This document shows positions 316 through 43,021 of a stretch of 64,000 bases of DNA, in pieces; the first letter of the stretch is position 1; every line of letters starts with the position of its first letter. Below the pieces are notes generated by a model. The model saw only the letters and a program-made list of their open reading frames with translations, did not search any database and was not told where the DNA came from. Location: assembly GCF_000744415.1 (NCBI RefSeq), contig NZ_JQLW01000006.1, positions 1-64,000 on the forward strand, given 5' to 3'. Source of the stretch: Ghiorsea bivora. Its GTDB lineage: Bacteria; Pseudomonadota; Zetaproteobacteria; Mariprofundales; Mariprofundaceae. A program made the position numbers and the translations under genes.

Positions 316-669
316 TTACTTATCTGACCACACGGCAAACTCATTACCCACAGGATCTTTAAAATGAAAACGTCGCCCACCGGGGAACATAAAAATGTCC
401 TTACAAATCATTCCACCCGCATCTTGTGCTTCACCCTGAGTCTGCTCCAAATCAGCACTATACAAGACCACCAATACACTGCCCTGATCTATAGAAACAG
501 TTTCACTTGATTGATAAAAAACACCATCTATTCCTGCATCAACAAAAGCGGTGTATTCAGGTCCATAATCTTTAAATGACCAGCCAAACACTTGGCTAAA
601 AAAGTTTTTACTAACCAATATATCTTTACTCGGAATTTCCAAGTAATTAATCTTATGTTGCACACGCAT
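316..669 (-). CDS. VOC-family (glyoxalase/bleomycin-resistance fold) protein
   Basis: A 117-residue single-domain protein, the usual size of one vicinal-oxygen-chelate unit. The N-terminus (NYLEIPSKDILVSKNFFSQV, then FGWSFKDYG) and the C-terminal DPVGNEFAVWSDK match the VOC pattern of a beta strand, a helix and a closing DPxGNxxxLW-type motif. Such proteins are metal-dependent lyases, dioxygenases or binding proteins and the substrate cannot be predicted here. The gene is downstream of the DUF188 gene (2 bp between them) and probably shares its transcript. Start ATG at 669. Confidence 0.8.
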   Translation of the reverse strand: MRVQHKINYLEIPSKDILVSKNFFSQVFGWSFKDYGPEYTAFVDAGIDGVFYQSSETVSIDQGSVLVVLYSADLEQTQGEAQDAGGMICKDIFMFPGGRRFHFKDPVGNEFAVWSDK

Positions 670-28559: not shown

Positions 28560-29840
28560 ATGAGAAAATTTCTTTTACTGCTTCCAATTCTGTTCTCATG
28601 TGCGCTCATTGTTTTTGCATTTTACCCTGAAAAAGAATCACCGCCGATTAAAGTAGGCATTCTCCATTCTTTAACGGGCACTATGGCCATCAGTGAGAAA
28701 CCAGTGATGCAAGCGACTCTGCTAGCAATCGAGGAAATCAATGCACAAGGTGGTTTGCTTGGGCGACAAATAGAGCCTGTTATTATTGATGGAAAATCAG
28801 ACTGGGATACTTTTGCCAAACAAGCTGAATATTTGATTACGCAAGAAAAAGTACGCGTTATTTTTGGTTGTTGGACATCGGCAAGCCGAAAAAGAGTGCG
28901 CCCCATTGTAGAGAAATACCATCACCTACTCTTTTACCCTGTACAATATGAAGGTTTAGAAACATCGCCCAATATTATTTATATGGGGGCAGCTCCCAAC
29001 CAACAAATTATTCCTGCCGTATCGTGGTCTATCCGAAACTTTGGGTCACGAATATATTTGATTGGTTCTGATTATGTGTTCCCGCGCGTTGCGAGCTGGT
29101 TAATCCATAAACAAACACCACTATTAGATGGTGCGATTATCGGCGAACATTATATGCCATTGGGTGCCACAGACATGACACAAGTGATTGCCGACCTCAA
29201 ACAATTAAAACCTGATGTGGTGATCAATAGTATCAATGGTGACTCCAATATCGCCTTCTTTTCAGCTTTGCAAAAAGCGAGTATTACCGCAAGTGATATA
29301 CCTGTCATGTCACTCAGTATTGGTGAAGCTGAGCTATCCAAGATACATAAAAGCACCAATATTCAAGGGCATTACGCCGCTTGGAATTATTTTCAAAGCA
29401 TCAACACCCCTGAAAATCATAAATTTGTCCAAGCTTACCAGTCCCATTATGGGAAAAACCTTCCCGTAAGCGACCCTATGGAAGCTGCTTGGAATGGGGT
29501 TCACCTATGGTCACAGGCAGTGCTTTCAGCACAAACCGATGATACGGCAACCGTACGTCAAACCGTACGCCACCAAAGTTTCACTGGACCTGAAGGCATT
29601 GTTTCTATTGATAATCGCACCCAGCATACATGGAAAACTGCACGCATAGGTCAAATCCAAGAAAATGGTCAGTTTAAGATACTTTGGTCTTCAACTCAAC
29701 CTATCCGCCCTATGCCTTACCCAGCATTGGTTTCCGTACAGGAAGCAGACCAGTATCTCAAACAACTCTACCTCGGATGGCATAAACACTGGGCAAGCCA
29801 AACCACACATGCGAAGCCTGCAAAACAGGGGCAACCATGA
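28560..29840 (+). CDS. UrtA/AmiC-like periplasmic ligand-binding protein
   Basis: 426 residues. The N-terminal hydrophobic stretch (LLLLPILFSCALIVFA) is a signal peptide or anchor; the cysteine lacks a clean lipobox. IKVGILHSLTGTMAISE, then INAQGGLLGRQIEPVIIDG and FGCWTSASRKRV match urea/short-chain-amide binding proteins (Peripla_BP_5). There are no urtBCDE genes nearby. Instead it overlaps a hybrid sensor kinase gene by 4 bp, so it probably presents a ligand to the kinase. TAAAAT at 28521-28526 could be its -10 box. Confidence 0.85.
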   Translation: MRKFLLLLPILFSCALIVFAFYPEKESPPIKVGILHSLTGTMAISEKPVMQATLLAIEEINAQGGLLGRQIEPVIIDGKSDWDTFAKQAEYLITQEKVRVIFGCWTSASRKRVRPIVEKYHHLLFYPVQYEGLETSPNIIYMGAAPNQQIIPAVSWSIRNFGSRIYLIGSDYVFPRVASWLIHKQTPLLDGAIIGEHYMPLGATDMTQVIADLKQLKPDVVINSINGDSNIAFFSALQKASITASDIPVMSLSIGEAELSKIHKSTNIQGHYAAWNYFQSINTPENHKFVQAYQSHYGKNLPVSDPMEAAWNGVHLWSQAVLSAQTDDTATVRQTVRHQSFTGPEGIVSIDNRTQHTWKTARIGQIQENGQFKILWSSTQPIRPMPYPALVSVQEADQYLKQLYLGWHKHWASQTTHAKPAKQGQP

Positions 29841-32587
29841 GTAAGCTTTTAGGCAAAATTCCCCTTATCACCACAAAGCCCAGCATTTTTAGTGTGCTTA
29901 TGCTACTTATACTCAGTATCATCATCATACTTTCGCTTACCTCAGGTTGGCATACACTTAGCAGCCTAAAAAAAATAGCAGTCGAAGAAAAAATAGCCGC
30001 GTTACAAAGCCTTGCTGACAATAAAATAAATACACTCAATACCTATATTGATCAGCATTTGATACAGATTGAAGTATTAAGTAACATGCAGACAACACAA
30101 ATCGCCACAAAAGCAATCATCCATGCATTTCATCACCAAACCCAAAACCCTAAAGTTTACAAGTTCGTCAACACGCACTATGGAAAATCCTTTGAGCATT
30201 TTTTATCAAGCTGGGGTTATTACGACCTGTTTATCATCGATTTGCAAGGCAATATTGTTTATACGATAAAGCACGAAAAAGACTTTGCGACCAACCTTAT
30301 CCATGGACCATACAAAAACACAGGTTTAGGGTTTGTTTTCAAACAGGCTAAAGACTTTTTGCAAACCAGCAACTCAACATTCGCTTACTACCCACCATCA
30401 GATGCACCAGGTGCTTTTGTTGCCACGCCGATTATCAATGATGGTGTCATGCTTGGTGTCATTGCATTGCAATTTGACACCCTTGCTTTCTATGATGAAC
30501 TCGATGACCTTGTCGGCATCGGTCAAACAGGGGAAATCGTAACAGGGCAACGCAGCAACCAACAAATTTTGATTACTGCACCACTTCGTCATGATGCCAA
30601 TGCTGCTTTTAAACGCACTGTCCCCTTACATTCAGAGCAGCCTCTACCCATTGAACAAGCTTCTTCTGGACACAATGGCTCAGGTATATTTTACGACTGG
30701 CGTGGTCAAGAAGTTATCGCCGTATGGGAATATATTCCTGCTTTGCAATGGGGGATGGTGGTTAAAGTTGACACCCAAGAAGCCTTTGCATTTTTACATC
30801 AAGTACAACGCAATTATATCATGTGGGTTGGGGTTAGTTTATTATTCGCTTCCTTACTTATTTATATTTTTACCCGCCGATTAACCATGCCCCTGCATCA
30901 ACTGACAAAAATCACAACAGAAATTGCCCATAACCCAGACCTTCATTTGACACAAGATACTTTCCATGCTCCTCGCACCATCACAGCAGAAGTCAATGCG
31001 CTCAGCCAAGCTTTTATAAGCATGATTCACAAAGTACAAGCGTCACAACGCAAGTTAAAAGATCATGTGGTCTCCTTAGCCAACCAAAATACAGCACTTG
31101 ATTATCAAGTCTCAGAACAAACAGCCCGTATGCAAGCTGTGATTGAGAATGCAGCCGATGGCATTATCACCATCAGTGAAACAGGTGTTATTCTAAGCCT
31201 CAATCCAGCAGCATGCACGATTTTTGCATACGAAGAAGAGACCTTGTTGGGTCAACCCATCCAACAGCTAATCACAGCAGAAACACTAGATTTCCAAGTA
31301 TTACAACAAAACAGCGAATCAGAAGGCAAACGAAAATCAGGAGAAATATTTCCCTTAGAAATAAGTTGTGCGGACATGTATGTGTTCACCCAGAAGTTAT
31401 TTCTTGTCACCGTGCGTGACATTACCCAAGCTAAATATGAACGCGAACAACTCGAACATACCCAACGTTTGGAATCGCTAGGCGTGCTCGCAGGTGGTAT
31501 TGCCCATGATTTCAACAATATACTGACCGCAATTTTGGGCAATGCAGCCATTGCCAAAGCACGAACAGATGCCTTATCCCCTATCTCACCCATGTTGGAT
31601 AATATCGAGAAATCCAGTGAACGTGCCGCTGAATTGTGCAAACAAATGTTGGCTTATTCAGGTAAAGGCAAGTTTATTATTAAACATATCAGCCTCACCG
31701 AAATGGTCGAAGAAATGCTTGCCTTATTAGAGGTTTCGATACAAAAAAATATTGTGATGCGCTTAGACCTCACCCAGCAACTGCCCTATATCGAAGCTGA
31801 TGTATCCCAAATTCAACAAATCATAATGAATCTTGTCATCAATGCATCAGAAGCCATTGGTAAAAATAGCGGTACCATCACCGTACACACTAGTGTCGTT
31901 CATGTTAGCGATGATTATATCAAAACCACCTACATCCATGACGATATTCAAGCCGGGCGTTATGTAACCCTTGAAGTATCCGATACTGGCTGTGGGATGA
32001 GCAAAGAAACCCAAAAACGGCTTTTTGACCCATTTTTCACCACCAAATTTACAGGGCGTGGTTTGGGCATGAGTGCGATTCTTGGTATTATCCGCGGTCA
32101 TAAAGGTGCAATCAAAGTGTATTCTGAAGAAGGAAAAGGCTCAAGCTTTAAACTCCTTTTCCCATGTGCAACATCCGATAAACCCACAAATGCAGCAGAC
32201 ATTAAACCCATTATTCAACATCAACATGGCATCGTGCTTGTTATCGATGATGAAGAAAGTGTACGCGAAATTGCCAGTATTATGCTTGAAGAAGCAGGAT
32301 ATACAGTGCTTACTGCATCAGGAGGTGTAGAAGGCATCGCCATCTTCAAAGCGCAACAAAAAGACATTATTGCCATCTTACTCGACATGACCATGCCAGA
32401 CATGGACGGCAGCACTGTTTTTCGTGAATTAAAAATCATACAACCTGATGTCACGGTCATTCTATCATCAGGTTATAATGAACAGGATGCAACCAACCGT
32501 TTTGCTGGTAAAGGTTTGGCTGGCTTCTTACAAAAACCTTATACACCTGATGCATTGTATAAAAAATTATCTGATGTCTTAAAATAA
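29837..32587 (+). CDS. Hybrid sensor histidine kinase: Cache-HAMP-PAS-kinase-receiver
   Basis: 916 residues. Membrane segments at 16-36 and 327-346 enclose a periplasmic dCache-type domain of about 290 residues (ends WGMVVKVDTQEAFAFL). A HAMP-like linker, a PAS domain (about 432-540), the kinase core with His557 (LAGGIAHDFNNILTAI), N and G boxes (NLVINASEA, DTGCGM, RGLGM) and a C-terminal receiver with Asp850 (AILLDMTMPDMDG) follow. No downstream DNA-binding regulator is adjacent, so the phosphorelay partner is unknown. Confidence 0.9.
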   Translation: MSKLLGKIPLITTKPSIFSVLMLLILSIIIILSLTSGWHTLSSLKKIAVEEKIAALQSLADNKINTLNTYIDQHLIQIEVLSNMQTTQIATKAIIHAFHHQTQNPKVYKFVNTHYGKSFEHFLSSWGYYDLFIIDLQGNIVYTIKHEKDFATNLIHGPYKNTGLGFVFKQAKDFLQTSNSTFAYYPPSDAPGAFVATPIINDGVMLGVIALQFDTLAFYDELDDLVGIGQTGEIVTGQRSNQQILITAPLRHDANAAFKRTVPLHSEQPLPIEQASSGHNGSGIFYDWRGQEVIAVWEYIPALQWGMVVKVDTQEAFAFLHQVQRNYIMWVGVSLLFASLLIYIFTRRLTMPLHQLTKITTEIAHNPDLHLTQDTFHAPRTITAEVNALSQAFISMIHKVQASQRKLKDHVVSLANQNTALDYQVSEQTARMQAVIENAADGIITISETGVILSLNPAACTIFAYEEETLLGQPIQQLITAETLDFQVLQQNSESEGKRKSGEIFPLEISCADMYVFTQKLFLVTVRDITQAKYEREQLEHTQRLESLGVLAGGIAHDFNNILTAILGNAAIAKARTDALSPISPMLDNIEKSSERAAELCKQMLAYSGKGKFIIKHISLTEMVEEMLALLEVSIQKNIVMRLDLTQQLPYIEADVSQIQQIIMNLVINASEAIGKNSGTITVHTSVVHVSDDYIKTTYIHDDIQAGRYVTLEVSDTGCGMSKETQKRLFDPFFTTKFTGRGLGMSAILGIIRGHKGAIKVYSEEGKGSSFKLLFPCATSDKPTNAADIKPIIQHQHGIVLVIDDEESVREIASIMLEEAGYTVLTASGGVEGIAIFKAQQKDIIAILLDMTMPDMDGSTVFRELKIIQPDVTVILSSGYNEQDATNRFAGKGLAGFLQKPYTPDALYKKLSDVLK

Positions 32588-32685: not shown

Positions 32686-34911
32686 TTAAAAGCGATCAAG
32701 ATTCATCACTTTTGTCCATGCTTGGATGAAGTCATGTACAAATTTTTCTTTGGAATCATCAAATGCATACACTTCAGCAACAGCTCTTAGCTCTGAGTTT
32801 GAACCGAAAATCAAGTCAACGGATGTGGCACTCCACTTGTGTTGACCTGTTTTTCTATCAAACCCTTCATACATACCCTCAGCTTTATCGGATTTTTTCC
32901 AAGCTGTTGCCATATCAAGCAAGTTGACGAAGAAATCATTGCTTAATGTGGCGGGTTTAGCCGTGAATACACCATGTTTTGATCCATCGACATTGGTATC
33001 AAGCACACGCATACCCCCGACCAACACCGTCATTTCAGGCACAGTGAGATTCAACAAGCTTGCTTTATCCACCAACATTTCCACAGGACCACGATAGCTA
33101 GACGCATCATAATAATTGCGGAAACCATCGGCAGTCAGCTCTAACACGGCAAATGATTTCACATCCGTTTGCGCTTGTGTTGCATCAGCACGGCCTGGTG
33201 CAAATGGTACTTTCACAGTAAACCCTGCATCTTTAGCCGCTTTTTCAATCGCTGCTGCACCGCCAAGCACAATCAAATCTGCCAAGGATACTTTAGTCCG
33301 ACTAAAGAAAGCATGGTTAAAGTCTTGCTGAATACCTTTCAACACGTTAAGCACTTTCGCCAATTCTTGAGGGTTATTCACCGCCCAATCCTTCTGTGGT
33401 GCTAAGCTAAGGCGAGCACCATTGGCACCACCACGCATATCACTGCTACGGAAACTGGCTGCCGATGCCCAAGCAGTACGCACAAGCTCTGGCACAGTTA
33501 ACCCCGAGTGAAGGATGTCTTGTTTAAGCGATTTAATATCTCCTGCATCAATCAACTTATAATCAACACTGGGAATCGGATCTTGCCAAACCATGACTTC
33601 ACTTGGCACATCAGCCCCAACATAACGTGTACGCGGTCCCATATCTCTGTGGGTTAGTTTAAACCAAGCACTCGCAAAGGCATGTTCAAACGCTTCGGGA
33701 TGCTCTTGAAAACGTTTGGCAATCACTTTGTAACTGGGGTCAAACTTCAATGCCAAGTCTGTGGTAAACATGATAGGCGTATGAAACTTACCATCCACAT
33801 GCGCATCAGGCACAATTTTTGCAGATTCATCGGTTGGAACCCATTGAATTGCACCCGCTGGACTTCTGGTTTTTTTCCACTCAAAGTGGAACAAGTTTTC
33901 CAAATACAAAGTTGTCCATTCGGTAGGTGATGATGTCCACGCACCTTCTAAACCACTGGTTACTGTGTCCTCAGCATTACCTTTGCCACACTTGTTCTTC
34001 CAGCCAAAACCCTGATCTTCGATGGGTGCCGCTGCTGGCTCTGCACCCACACATTTGGAGGGTTTATGTGCACCATGCGCTTTACCAAAGGTGTGACCAC
34101 CTGCAATCAACGCAACCACTTCTTCATCATTCATCGCCATGCGACCAAAAGATTCACGAATCGATTGCGCCGCAGCCAATGGGTCTGGAATACCATTCGG
34201 GCCTTCAGGATTTACATAAATCAAACCCATTTGCACAGCCGCAAGTGGTTTTTCTAACTCACCATCTTTATTGCGACGTTTATGGTCCATGAATTTTGTT
34301 TCTGAACCCCAATAAATTAAATCAGGCTCCCAATCATCCTCTCGACCACCAGCAAAACCTAAGGTTTTAAAACCCATGTTTTCCATGGCTACATTGCCTG
34401 CAAGAATCATCAAATCAGCCCAAGAAATATGTTCGCCATATTTCTGTTTTACAGGCCACAATAAACGTCTGGCTTTATCAAGATTGCCATTATCAGGCCA
34501 ACTGTTTAATGGCTCAAAGCGTTGTTGCCCACCTGCCGCACCACCACGGCCATCATGCACACGGTATGTGCCTGCACTATGCCAAGCCATACGAATAAAG
34601 AATGGCCCATAATTGCCATAATCGGCAGGCCACCAATCTTGCGATGTGGTTAACAAGGCATCAATATCCTTCTTCACCGCTTGCAAGTCTAACTGCGCAA
34701 ACGCCTTGGCATAGTTAAAACTTTCACCCAAAGGATTGGATGAAGCATCGTGAGCACGAAGTGGGCTGAGGTTAAGTTGTTCAGGCCACCAAAATTGATT
34801 GGTTTTTGCTTCCCCTTTATGCACGTTGGGGTCGGCAAAAGTCGTCGTTGATAGCGGTACGGCTAACAAGCTTGCCACCGCTATACTCATTAATAGATTT
34901 CTTGTTTTCAT
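32686..34911 (-). CDS. katG: Catalase-peroxidase KatG, exported form
   Basis: 741 residues from the ATG at 34911, preceded by GGAGGG; an upstream TTG is rejected. Active site residues line up with the M. tuberculosis enzyme: Arg107, Trp110 and His111 ([11 protein letters not shown]), Tyr232 and Met258 completing the Trp-Tyr-Met adduct, and proximal His273 ([10 protein letters not shown]). The first 26 residues ([20 protein letters not shown] onward, ending TFA) are a signal peptide, so it should act in the periplasm. Divergent from oxyR. Confidence 0.96.
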
Positions 34912-34981
34912 GGGTTTTACCCTCCTTGATTTCAAACTTCATGTGAAAACCGCGTGTATTTTCACATTTGAAATGGTATCA

Positions 34982-35066: not shown

Positions 35067-35936
35067 ATGAACTTACGTGAAATGTCATACTTGGTTGCCG
35101 TCGCTGAATTGCGCAATTTCACCAAAGCTGCAGAACATTGTCATGTTAGCCAGCCCACACTGAGCGCACAAATCAAAAAGATGGAAAAATACTTGGATGT
35201 AAAAATCTTTGAGCGCGATAACAAACAAGTGATGATTACCGAAGAAGGTAAAGACATCATCCAATCAGCTGAAAAAATCCTACAAGAAGTGGCGCGAATC
35301 GAAGAAATTGCAGAACACGCGCACAATCCATTTTCAGGCAAATTTAGGCTTGGCGCATTCCCAACCCTTGCCACTTATATATTCCCCGGCATGGTGCCAA
35401 AAATCAAAGCGCTCATGCCTGACCTTCACCTGATTCTTATTGAAGAAAAAACGGCTGAGTTGCTCGACCGTCTGCACAAAGGTGAAATTGATGCAGCCCT
35501 ACTCGCTCTGCCCGTGCTTGGTGAGTCGCTGGAAATCAATGCCTTGTTTGATGATAATTTCTTCCTAGCCACTAGCCCCACCCACCCTTTGGCAAACACT
35601 GCTAGGATTAACATCGATACACTTGCCCAATACAGATTATTGCTGCTTGAAGAAGGTCATTGTTTACGCGACCACGCTTTGGAAGTTTGTCACCAACATA
35701 ATATTGGTGAAGAGCAAGACTTTCGCGCTACAAGCCTTGAAACACTTAGGCAAATGGTCAAAGCTGGCACAGGCATCACCATGATACCTGAAATCGCCAT
35801 TAATCATGTGGAAACGGACATCCATTATATCCCTTTTATCAAACCCCAACCCTACCGAACCATTGCCATGGTTTACCGAAAAACATCAACAAAAAAAGAA
35901 ATCATCAAACATATTGAAGATATATTGAGAGCTTAG
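35067..35936 (+). CDS. oxyR: Hydrogen-peroxide sensor OxyR (LysR family)
   Basis: 289 residues. N-terminal helix-turn-helix FTKAAEHCHVSQPTLSAQIK. The regulatory domain holds Cys199 and Cys208 (EEGHCLRDHALEVC), the same spacing and numbering as the redox-active pair of E. coli OxyR. Peroxide oxidation should form the disulfide and switch it to activate katG. The ribosome-binding site AAGGAG precedes the ATG. Divergent neighbour of katG. Confidence 0.95.
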   Translation: MNLREMSYLVAVAELRNFTKAAEHCHVSQPTLSAQIKKMEKYLDVKIFERDNKQVMITEEGKDIIQSAEKILQEVARIEEIAEHAHNPFSGKFRLGAFPTLATYIFPGMVPKIKALMPDLHLILIEEKTAELLDRLHKGEIDAALLALPVLGESLEINALFDDNFFLATSPTHPLANTARINIDTLAQYRLLLLEEGHCLRDHALEVCHQHNIGEEQDFRATSLETLRQMVKAGTGITMIPEIAINHVETDIHYIPFIKPQPYRTIAMVYRKTSTKKEIIKHIEDILRA

Positions 35937-37041: not shown

Positions 37042-38040
37042 ATGGTCAGTAGTAAACAAGATTGGGGACAGTACCCCGTCACTGTCTTTTATCTTGATGA
37101 CCAACGAAGTGTGACCAAGTCTGTTAAAAAGATGTTAAAACACACCCCACATATTCATTACCATGAATGCAATGACCCTAAGCTTGCCATTGAACAAATA
37201 TTAAATATTGGTCCTACTGTTATTCTTTTGGATTTACACATGCCCATTATGGATGGTTTTGCCATACTTCAACAACTGCAAACCCATGAAGCCACCCAAG
37301 ATATTCCCGTGCTTATTCTTACTATGGATGCCAGTATTGAGTCTCATAAAAAGGCTTTTGAACTTGGTGCCAATGATTATTTGCTGAAAATGCCTGATAA
37401 AATGGAATTAATTTTACGTTTGCGCTACCACACACGTTCATATATTGACCATTTAGAACGCCAAGCCATGTACCAAACACTGCTGGAGAACAAAAAGAAA
37501 TTGAAACAAGTGATTGAAAAATTGGAGCGTTCATCACTTGAAGATAGTTTAACTGAAATACCCAACCGCCGCTCTTTTGACCAATATTTTGAAGTGGAGT
37601 GGCAACGCGCTATGCGTGAAACCACATCACTATCCTTAATTTTCATCGATATTGACCACTTTAAACTATACAATGATTTTTATGGTCACCTAGCTGGTGA
37701 CGACTGCCTTAAAGAAGTCGCCCAAGCCCTCAAAAACACCTTGCAACGCCCCACAGACTTACTTGCTCGTTATGGTGGGGAAGAGTTTGTTGCTTTATTG
37801 CCCAATACCCATGGGCAAGGTGCCATGCTAATTGCAGACCGTTTGCGTAAAAAAGTTCTCTCACTTCAACTTGAACACCAGCAATCTCCAACCAGCGACA
37901 TTATTACCATCAGTCTTGGCGTTGTCACAACATCACCCATGATCAAACACCATGCCCGTGATTTTGTCCATGTCGCAGATGAAGCATTATATGAAGCAAA
38001 GAAAGCTGGGCGAAACTGTGTCATATGTAAAAGTATTTAG
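37042..38040 (+). CDS. Response regulator with diguanylate cyclase (GGDEF) output
   Basis: 332 residues. Receiver with Asp64 in VILLDLHMPIMDG, a helical linker (about 135-165), and a GGDEF domain with the active-site GGEEF at 245-249. An RxxD product-inhibition site (RPTD, 236-239) lies five residues before it, so feedback inhibition is expected. Same layout as WspR. It makes c-di-GMP, the signal degraded or read by the HD-GYP and PilZ proteins at 11.8-14.0 kb. No sensor kinase is adjacent. Confidence 0.93.
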   Translation: MVSSKQDWGQYPVTVFYLDDQRSVTKSVKKMLKHTPHIHYHECNDPKLAIEQILNIGPTVILLDLHMPIMDGFAILQQLQTHEATQDIPVLILTMDASIESHKKAFELGANDYLLKMPDKMELILRLRYHTRSYIDHLERQAMYQTLLENKKKLKQVIEKLERSSLEDSLTEIPNRRSFDQYFEVEWQRAMRETTSLSLIFIDIDHFKLYNDFYGHLAGDDCLKEVAQALKNTLQRPTDLLARYGGEEFVALLPNTHGQGAMLIADRLRKKVLSLQLEHQQSPTSDIITISLGVVTTSPMIKHHARDFVHVADEALYEAKKAGRNCVICKSI

Positions 38041-40455: not shown

Positions 40456-42405
40456 TTAATATAAAAAAGCCTCGATATTTTCTTGTAAAGTATCGGGGTG
40501 AAAGGGTTTGGACATCAGCATACTGTGCGCAAAATCCTTGGTGGCTTTAATCGATATCGACTGATCATAAGCAGTGGCAAAAATAATAGGAACATCAGGA
40601 TAAAGTTGGCGAATTTGGCTTGCTGCAGCCGTGCCTACCAAACGTGGCATCACCATATCCATAACTATCAAATCCACCTGATCACCATGTTCACGCATCA
40701 TATCAACAGCACATTGCCCATCTTCTGCCTGCAATATTTGATACCCCAATACATCAAGAAGTTCGGCACATGTATCCCGCACCAAACCATCATCATCCAC
40801 CAGCAATATCGTCTGGTTCATTGTTTCACGAGGTAGTATCGAATGAATCTCTTCACTCTTTTTATCTTCCAATAAGGGTAACCAAATATGCACCACTGTA
40901 CCGTCAGGTTTGGATTCAATATCAATCATGCCATGATTATTTTTGATATTACCAATGGCAACAGCCAAACCCAAACCGCTACCCAATGTTTTTGTCGTAA
41001 AAAATGGGTCAAAAACCTTATGAATATCTTCGTCTTTGATGCCTGAACCATTGTCAGCAATGGTAATATGGGCAAACCTACCCTCTGCAAGTGCTGCATG
41101 TTTTTTAACCCAAAGTGAATCGTTATCCGCATCCCAGCTTTGCAAACCCAGAATAATTGTAGGTTCTCTCGTATCTACTGCTGCATCCACGGCATTTTGT
41201 ATAATATTTAACAGCGCTTCTTGCAAACTTTCTACATCACCCTGACACGAAAAATCAGCGCGCTGAAAATCAATGCTAAGCTTGATATTATCAGGCACGG
41301 TATGCTCTGCTAAGCGAATAAATTCTTTGATAAAAGACCCTAAAGGAAACCTTCTTTTTTTCACCTCACCTTTGCGCGCAAAGGTCATCAACTGCTGAAC
41401 AATACCAGCAATATCATTGGCAACACCTTGTATTTTACCTAACCTTACAGAGGTTTTAGGCATATCCTTTACTTCCCGATTCGCCAAATACAAATGCCCT
41501 AACATACCCGATAATAAGTTATTAAAATCATGCGCAATGCCACCAATTAAAGTTGCCAAGGCTTCTTGTTTCTCACTTTGCCTATATTGCATTTCAAACT
41601 TAAGCTGCTCACTAATGTCTTCTTGCACCACCACAGCATGGGTCACTTTGCCTTGTGGGTTAACAATCGGGGCAATGCTCACCGATGCCATGAAACAAGA
41701 ATCATCCTTACGCTTGATTTCAAGCCTGCCTTGCCATGTTTCAGCACCTGATACAACCTGCTTTACAGTAAGGTTAAGGTTGTCTTCTAAAGGCATAATA
41801 TATGTGTCCCAATACGATTCGCCAAGCACATGCTCAGAACTTAAACAACCCGTTTGTGCAAGGAATGCTTTATTCACATATTCAATGTCACCATGAATAC
41901 GCATAATTACAAAAGCTTCAGCGGCTTTATCCACAGCGCGCACAAGTATATTATTTTGTTGTTCCAGCTGTTTTCGTTGTTCAATTTCATGCTCATAAGA
42001 AGCCAAAACTTTTTTGTGCTTCTCTTCACGTAACACCGACCGCGTCATATCTACAACTGTAAATAAAGCCAGTGTTTCATTATCATTGCGTAATGAAGTG
42101 ACTGTAACCCGCTGTGCTTGCAAGCTCCCATCAGGTTTCTGGAAATCAAAAAGATGATGGTGCAACAACATAGAAAAAAATGCAGGCGACCCGTTGTGTA
42201 AAACTTGGTCTATACGTGTTTTATAAGCAAGACCAGCCAGGCGAGGGTACAAATCGGTTAACTTTTGACCAACAAACACACTTTCCGCCTGTTGTGACCA
42301 TTGTACCAACCTTTTATTCCAAAAGACAATTTTATAATCTTTATCAACAATACATACGCCATCAGGTAAAGTCTGCAACACATCAAAGCACATGAGACTT
42401 TTCAT
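40456..42405 (-). CDS. Hybrid sensor histidine kinase: PAS-PAS-kinase-receiver, soluble
   Basis: 649 residues from the ATG at 42405, with GGAGTGGAG before it (a GTG 15 bp upstream is possible). PAS 1 (VLQTLPDGVCIVDKDYKIVF), PAS 2 (DKAAEAFVIMRIHGDIEYVN) with a PAC-like end, kinase core (GGIAHDFNNLLSGMLGH; N box IIQNAVDAA; DNGSGI; GSGLGLAVA) and a C-terminal receiver (DLIVMDMVMPRLVG). No membrane segment, so it senses a cytoplasmic signal. It follows the CheC-like gene by 1 bp. Its stop lies in a MITE target repeat. Confidence 0.92.
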   Translation of the reverse strand: MKSLMCFDVLQTLPDGVCIVDKDYKIVFWNKRLVQWSQQAESVFVGQKLTDLYPRLAGLAYKTRIDQVLHNGSPAFFSMLLHHHLFDFQKPDGSLQAQRVTVTSLRNDNETLALFTVVDMTRSVLREEKHKKVLASYEHEIEQRKQLEQQNNILVRAVDKAAEAFVIMRIHGDIEYVNKAFLAQTGCLSSEHVLGESYWDTYIMPLEDNLNLTVKQVVSGAETWQGRLEIKRKDDSCFMASVSIAPIVNPQGKVTHAVVVQEDISEQLKFEMQYRQSEKQEALATLIGGIAHDFNNLLSGMLGHLYLANREVKDMPKTSVRLGKIQGVANDIAGIVQQLMTFARKGEVKKRRFPLGSFIKEFIRLAEHTVPDNIKLSIDFQRADFSCQGDVESLQEALLNIIQNAVDAAVDTREPTIILGLQSWDADNDSLWVKKHAALAEGRFAHITIADNGSGIKDEDIHKVFDPFFTTKTLGSGLGLAVAIGNIKNNHGMIDIESKPDGTVVHIWLPLLEDKKSEEIHSILPRETMNQTILLVDDDGLVRDTCAELLDVLGYQILQAEDGQCAVDMMREHGDQVDLIVMDMVMPRLVGTAAASQIRQLYPDVPIIFATAYDQSISIKATKDFAHSMLMSKPFHPDTLQENIEAFLY

Positions 42406-42406
42406 G

Positions 42407-43021
42407 CTACTCCACTCCACCTGCTTCTAGCGCACTAAAAAAAGAAGTTAAACTTTCTTGTTCGATTTGAAGCATCAATAAACTAGATAAATACAACCCA
42501 GAAACACAAAAATGTACATTAGCAGTCATAACCACACTACCTTGCTGCCCAACAGATAAACAATCATCAGCTGACAACTCCTCATAATCGGGAAAATCAA
42601 AAGACACTTCACCTTGTTTCGTATCACAAAGCTTACCTATCACGCCATTCATCAGAATATTACCAACTTCGGTTATCGCACCCATACGAAAAATATCCAT
42701 TTCATAGCTGCGCATTGTGCTTTGCGTGAGTGTATTGATAAGTACAGTTATCGAATCTGAAGGAAACAATATTGCAACCGAACCAGACACCAACCCCGTA
42801 AACCGCATAAAGACCCATGATAAATGAACATCATAGTTCTCAGCCACTTGCTGCTGCAAACGCGGCACATCAATCACCTGCACAGCATCCACCGCAACTT
42901 GCATAGGTTGGGCGACCATCGCCTCAAATACCGACTCAGCTTGCGTCACCCCATGCACAAACATATCCTGCACCAAAGCGCGCTGCTGTTCTGATATTGA
43001 TTGCTGTATTCCATCCATCAT
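42407..43021 (-). CDS. CheC-like chemotaxis phosphatase-family protein
   Basis: 204 residues. ITEVGNILMNGVIGKL has the E-x-x-N pattern of CheC/CheX phosphatases, and the preceding SGSVAILFPSDSITVLINTL and the following SVVMTANVHFCV fit the fold. Only one such motif is visible, while CheC often has two. CheC-type proteins dephosphorylate CheY-like receivers. Here the partner may be the hybrid kinase encoded 1 bp downstream. Two ATG codons open the frame (43021 and 43018). Confidence 0.7.
   Translation of the reverse strand: MMDGIQQSISEQQRALVQDMFVHGVTQAESVFEAMVAQPMQVAVDAVQVIDVPRLQQQVAENYDVHLSWVFMRFTGLVSGSVAILFPSDSITVLINTLTQSTMRSYEMDIFRMGAITEVGNILMNGVIGKLCDTKQGEVSFDFPDYEELSADDCLSVGQQGSVVMTANVHFCVSGLYLSSLLMLQIEQESLTSFFSALEAGGVE

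Follow-up and report, generated by a model that had tools for sequence, protein, structure and literature searches.

LuxP/LuxQ and TorT/TorS are hybrid kinase systems that depend on a binding protein (SBP), the gene of which lies beside that of the kinase; the periplasmic domain of LuxQ is a tandem PAS/Cache domain. A regulatory use of a UrtA-related domain is found in AmiC, a cytoplasmic protein that acts on AmiR. For most sensor kinases, the signal is unknown. A literature search, with most subscription journals outside it, returned no paper on a UrtA-like SBP acting together with a kinase.

The window analyzed here, a stretch of 64,000 nucleotides of Ghiorsea bivora (contig NZ_JQLW01000006.1, positions 1 to 64,000), contains a gene pair in this arrangement (Table 1). 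The two ORFs agree exactly with those given in the first-pass annotation, and the stop/start overlap claimed there is borne out by the junction CAACC-ATGA-GTAAG, in which ATGA is common to the stop of the UrtA-like gene and the start of the kinase gene. An exact -4 overlap is present in about one-third of 44 relative SBP-kinase pairs; the apparent coupling is only suggestive of a 1:1 use of the two products. As in LuxP/LuxQ and TorT/TorS, the SBP gene adjoins that of a hybrid kinase, the periplasmic part of which is of the tandem PAS/Cache type known from LuxQ. In contrast to these systems, the SBP family and the predicted ligand are of urea type instead of AI-2 or TMAO, and the kinase carries a PAS linker and a single receiver. 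On balance, it is probable that the two genes encode one receptor in the manner of LuxP/LuxQ or TorT/TorS, composed of a dedicated SBP sensing urea or a near analogue and a dCache hybrid kinase, and the two-part-sensor reading put forward earlier is, overall, supported. If this is true, urea would provide a ready assay for a widespread kinase family, and the pair would show a nutrient-uptake protein turned into a dedicated co-receptor.

Table 1. Features of the SBP-kinase locus in the window
Feature	Position	Strand	Basis
UrtA-like binding protein gene, 426 aa	28560..29840	+	ORF list, Pfam, NCBIfam
N-terminal hydrophobic segment, predicted uncleaved membrane anchor	28560..28646	+	read from sequence
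Layout of UrtA-like protein: hydrophobic helix, residues 2-20; Venus-flytrap domain, ~29-391; C-terminal helix, 393-406			
Predicted urea pocket: W105, S107, Y126, Q129, E131, Y172, F174, N226, S253	28872..29318	+	alignment
ATGA stop/start overlap of the UrtA-like and kinase genes	29837..29840	+	sequence
Hybrid sensor histidine kinase gene, 916 aa	29837..32587	+	ORF list, Pfam
Periplasmic dCache domain between TM helices (~residues 16-38 and 326-347)	29960..30790	+	model, weak Pfam
PAS domain, residues 431-529	31127..31423	+	Pfam PAS 7e-12
HisKA and HATPase_c; His557 at nt 31505-31507	31487..32167	+	Pfam, sequence
Receiver domain; phospho-acceptor Asp850 at nt 32384-32386	32234..32569	+	Pfam, sequence

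Conservation of the gene pair

Relatives were sampled both from the UrtA-like gene and from the sensor of the kinase, and the two samplings agree. The first comprised 74 genomes of the family, with Ghiorsea and Mariprofundus as named relatives. The UrtA-like gene occurs in 28 of them, and at every one of the 29 loci complete enough to be judged a sensor kinase is located beside it or fused to it. In the second, a UrtA-like SBP is encoded directly upstream in 27 of the best 80 GTDB relatives of the sensor, all 27 ranking within the top 35; of the others in the top 35, three end at a contig edge and a few, such as L154, are without an SBP, and below the top 35 none of the best 80 has an SBP directly upstream. 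The hosts of the pair include Mariprofundaceae, Methylobacter, Sulfuritalea, Gallionellaceae, Myxococcota, Planctomycetota, Ca. Chloroploca, and a Bacteroidetes MAG, the phyla represented among the closest GTDB sensor relatives being Proteobacteria, Myxococcota, Planctomycetota, Chloroflexota, and Bacteroidota. The pair, for which a search in other genomes had been proposed, is thus widely conserved within and beyond the family, its conservation in many genomes rules out pairing by chance, and the UrtA-like SBP and the dCache kinase constitute a conserved module, with adjacency and joint conservation as in the LuxPQ and TorTS type. In a tree of 95 sensors, paired and unpaired sensors are separated with three label changes; the mirror correlation of SBP and sensor distances over 44 pairs is 0.77, a value to which shared species history contributes. 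One contig filed as Nitrosomonas (L142) carries an SBP that groups with Ghiorsea in the tree, reflecting either transfer or a mis-binned contig.

Adjacency of an SBP gene and a kinase gene can be misleading, as is seen from three SBPs of P. aeruginosa, which are encoded near the kinases AgtS/AruS with no evidence of activating them (PMC11113362). By this precedent, the two genes could be neighbors without functional link that are merely co-transcribed, but the pair is kept constant across phyla while its flanking genes vary between genomes, and one-chain fusions exist (see below), which renders such an explanation highly improbable. Screening of the locus for promoters and terminators gave no signal above the shuffle background, and a scan of viral contigs gave no matches.

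Binding protein, ligand pocket, and missing transporter

The UrtA-like protein matches the Pfam family Peripla_BP_5 (1e-155). Against the NCBIfam model of UrtA (TIGR03407) it reaches 488.4 bits and stays slightly below the curated cut-off of 492.75; its kinase-paired relatives mostly score 402-489 and transporter UrtAs mostly above 509, with two chemoreceptor-paired SBPs near the cut-off (490.7 and 512.9). The predicted structure (pLDDT 91.7) is nearest to the Caldicellulosiruptor urea-binding protein 8TG1 (Z 59.6, rmsd 1.0, 54% identity). In the urea complex of UrtA from Prochlorococcus (P. marinus), the pocket is formed by W120, S122, Y141, Q144, E146, Y190, F192, N246, and S274, and binding is lost or strongly lowered when W120 or any one of the four residues engaged in hydrogen bonding is mutated (PMC10392092). 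According to the alignment, all nine are identical in the UrtA-like protein, which shares with UrtA of UrtABCDE (TIGR03407; 8HIC, 7S6E, 7S6F) both the fold and the pocket. The pocket identity, together with 8TG1 as nearest structure, points to urea or a very close analogue as the predicted ligand and narrows the first-pass suggestion of an amide, urea, or amino-acid-like compound. AmiC (1PEA, 1QNL; structure Z 53) resembles the present protein in employing a UrtA-related domain for regulation, not transport, but differs at five of the nine pocket positions, on which ground an AmiC-type amide receptor was rejected, and the protein described here would be periplasmic and work with a kinase.

With either F or Y accepted at position 192, the nine residues are kept in 46 of 51 signalling SBPs. 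Five signalling SBPs have changed pockets, from which it follows that the scaffold can be retuned; the pocket of L146 (Y S Y P E Y W V A) is amide-receptor-like. The kinase-linked SBPs with altered pockets L146:4588-5847, L097:6802-8073, L031:2454-3710, and L087:569-1969 are natural test cases for a change of specificity. Such retuning would also be in line with the same two-part receptor having another urea-like or amide compound, for instance formamide, acetamide, or guanidine, as its natural ligand, as would the lack of urease in the family; a urea receptor leaves it unexplained why lithotrophs that oxidise iron and lack urease would monitor urea, which counts against urea. Yet the UrtA-like protein retains the complete set of urea contacts, a urea-binding protein is its closest structure, and the FmdA-type amidase is absent from the family as well, so that a different ligand is regarded as unlikely, if worth keeping in view, and urea is preferred.

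No clear AxA cleavage site is recognizable at the N-terminus, as judged by eye against 30 transporter UrtAs, nearly all of which start with cleavable-looking AxA-type or RR signals. In most of the kinase-linked UrtA-like proteins, the N-terminus is an anchor-like helix or shows a lipobox-like cysteine (also by eye), either of which would fit the role of a tethered co-receptor; the present protein is probably periplasmic and tethered to the inner membrane. In the main subgroup of the kinase-linked proteins, the C-terminal helix contains an L-Y-x-x-W-type motif.

The source genome (2.15 Mb, 13 contigs, completeness score 100%) has a single UrtA-like gene. A permease of the family BPD_transp_2 (PF02653), to which UrtB, UrtC, LivH, and LivM belong, was detected neither there nor in any of the 74 family genomes, with the same search giving matches in 12 of 14 control genomes. 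The orphan status assigned earlier therefore holds, and urtBCDE genes without a urtA of their own did not turn up elsewhere, UrtB/C-type permeases being absent from genome and family alike. Urease above the cut-off and the FmdA-type amidase are likewise missing from all 74 genomes. Urea catabolism via urea carboxylase was dismissed for the source genome, where only generic biotin-carboxylase-like matches far below the cut-off are present, as was an internal urea source, arginase/agmatinase being absent from that genome.

In the tree, the kinase-linked UrtA-like proteins form one clade with the transporter UrtAs on the other side (one change; support 99/94 and 100/98); the transporter sample consists of the 30 UrtAs with the highest scores in the phylum, and most of these lie beside a hydrophobic UrtB-like ORF. 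Wider sampling could soften the split. The sequence of the SBP is closest to transporter UrtA, as would suit a leftover of, or a component serving, an ABC transporter encoded elsewhere. Against this stand the separate clade, the anchor-like N-terminus in place of a cleavable signal, and the absence of BPD_transp_2 from the own and the 74 family genomes, on account of which a transport remnant was rejected; the probability of such an origin or function is practically negligible. With UrtB/C-type permease, urease, and FmdA lacking throughout the 74 genomes, a transport role is very unlikely. Unlike transporter UrtA and 8TG1, the UrtA-like protein is coupled to a kinase instead of permease partners, scores below the family cut-off, and possesses an extra C-terminal helix with the L-Y-x-x-W motif besides its anchor-like N-terminus and its separate position in the tree. 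The recurrence of the pair across several bacterial phyla argues for a receptor and not for uptake or use of urea, which the pair would probably sense rather than help to consume. Because a well-studied transporter pocket is intact in a protein hardly able to serve transport, the ligand can be named from sequence alone with unusual precision.

Sensor kinase and proposed signalling route

Pfam matches above the cut-off were obtained for PAS, HisKA, HATPase_c, and Response_reg, and His557, the N and G boxes of the ATPase, and Asp850 of the receiver are all present, as befits a hybrid histidine kinase. The match of the sensor to dCache_1 is weak (36.2 bits versus a gathering score of 45), with relatives reaching 61.2 (L035) and 54.3 bits (L047). 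The AlphaFold2 model of the sensor, built with 33 sequences (pLDDT 88.8), displays a clear dCache domain, a periplasmic fold of tandem PAS-like type carried by a long N-terminal helix, and matches the DctB sensor 3by9 with Z 19.6 over 229 residues. Thus, of the domains originally assigned to the 916-residue protein, PAS, kinase, and receiver are confirmed by Pfam and dCache by the predicted fold, but HAMP was not detected by Pfam in this kinase; its presence may be deduced from relatives, in which it exceeds the cut-off at the same place. The same genome encodes a second dCache hybrid kinase (L032:6877-10299 (-), contig C10), the sensor of which is 32% identical and has no UrtA-like partner.

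Since dCache domains usually bind ligands directly, a dual input is conceivable, with a small ligand bound by the dCache domain itself and a second signal added or modulated by the SBP. The sensor aligns with residues 353-593 of 5ERE (Desulfohalobium retbaense Dret_0059, "extracellular ligand binding receptor"; Z 19.0), a dCache domain listed as cytosine-binding; the N-terminal part of 5ERE was not found by sequence search with the UrtA-like SBP. LuxQ-type Cache domains that work via an SBP, however, are listed as ligand-free with small cavities (PMC8694187), and the presence of the SBP tracks the sensor lineage, so that a second ligand appears decidedly improbable.

For the receptor with the SBP as the sensing partner, we infer the following route, including the docking, the direction of the switch, and the output. 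Urea would close the two lobes of the UrtA-like flytrap, and the closed form would dock on the dCache domain of the kinase. The resulting change would cross the second transmembrane helix and the PAS linker and alter autophosphorylation of His557, from which the phosphoryl group would pass to Asp850 of the receiver and onward to a partner encoded elsewhere, either an Hpt protein or a response regulator.

That the output partner is not nearby, as had been noted, is confirmed, the neighbors of the locus offering no dedicated one. An output gene within an operon was rejected, because the flanking genes (znuBC-like, ilvA, bioA, katG, LysR, and 5'-nucleotidase) are kept with the pair solely in the closest relatives. 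The nearest receiver-output gene, REC-GGDEF at 37042-38040, is separated from the pair by katG and two other genes, and no link is claimed. Co-occurring Hpt regulators, also suggested in the first-pass annotation, were sought in the source genome; of its three Hpt domains, one is a small ORF beside a CheY-like gene and two reside in large proteins, and none could be tied to the locus as a dedicated partner.

The catalase-peroxidase gene downstream (32686-34935 (-)) encodes a signal-peptide-like N-terminus and is divergent from that of a LysR-type (OxyR-like) regulator (35067-35936 (+)). Further along the window, a PAS hybrid kinase gene (40456-42420) overlaps a CheC/CheX-like-looking gene (42407-43021), both on the minus strand.

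Natural fusions and further outputs

A wider proposal, for and against which the chances are evenly balanced, is that of a signalling-only UrtA branch extending over several phyla, which would act as a plug-in urea co-receptor for hybrid kinases, kinase plus receiver, chemoreceptors, and cytoplasmic one-chain UrtA-kinases. Its users would be bacteria, Ghiorsea and Mariprofundus among them, that have neither urease nor urea ABC transporters, urea being an environmental signal and not a nutrient.

The binding protein looks like a plug-in signalling input by virtue of its fusions and varied outputs. The 909-aa ORF L083:5365-8094 (-) unites UrtA domain, PAS, kinase, and receiver without a signal peptide. 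L084 has a comparable UrtA-PAS, likewise signal-less, with a kinase fragment behind it; these are apparently cytoplasmic versions of a UrtA-kinase. L081:5129-6910 (-) and L082:2571-4358 (+) are UrtA-like SBPs with a C-terminal segment matching dCache_1. L081 adjoins an HD-GYP response regulator. Within one subgroup, the SBP is paired with a shorter kinase and a single receiver protein. The natural UrtA-Cache and UrtA-kinase fusions, together with chemoreceptor pairs, support a direct role in signalling. In the latter, the SBPs L217:4016-5272 (-) and L228:3091-4395 (-), both with an intact urea pocket, adjoin 4HB methyl-accepting chemotaxis proteins and possibly represent urea chemoreceptor pairs; from these two pocket-identical SBPs it is evident that Cache is not the sole type of partner.
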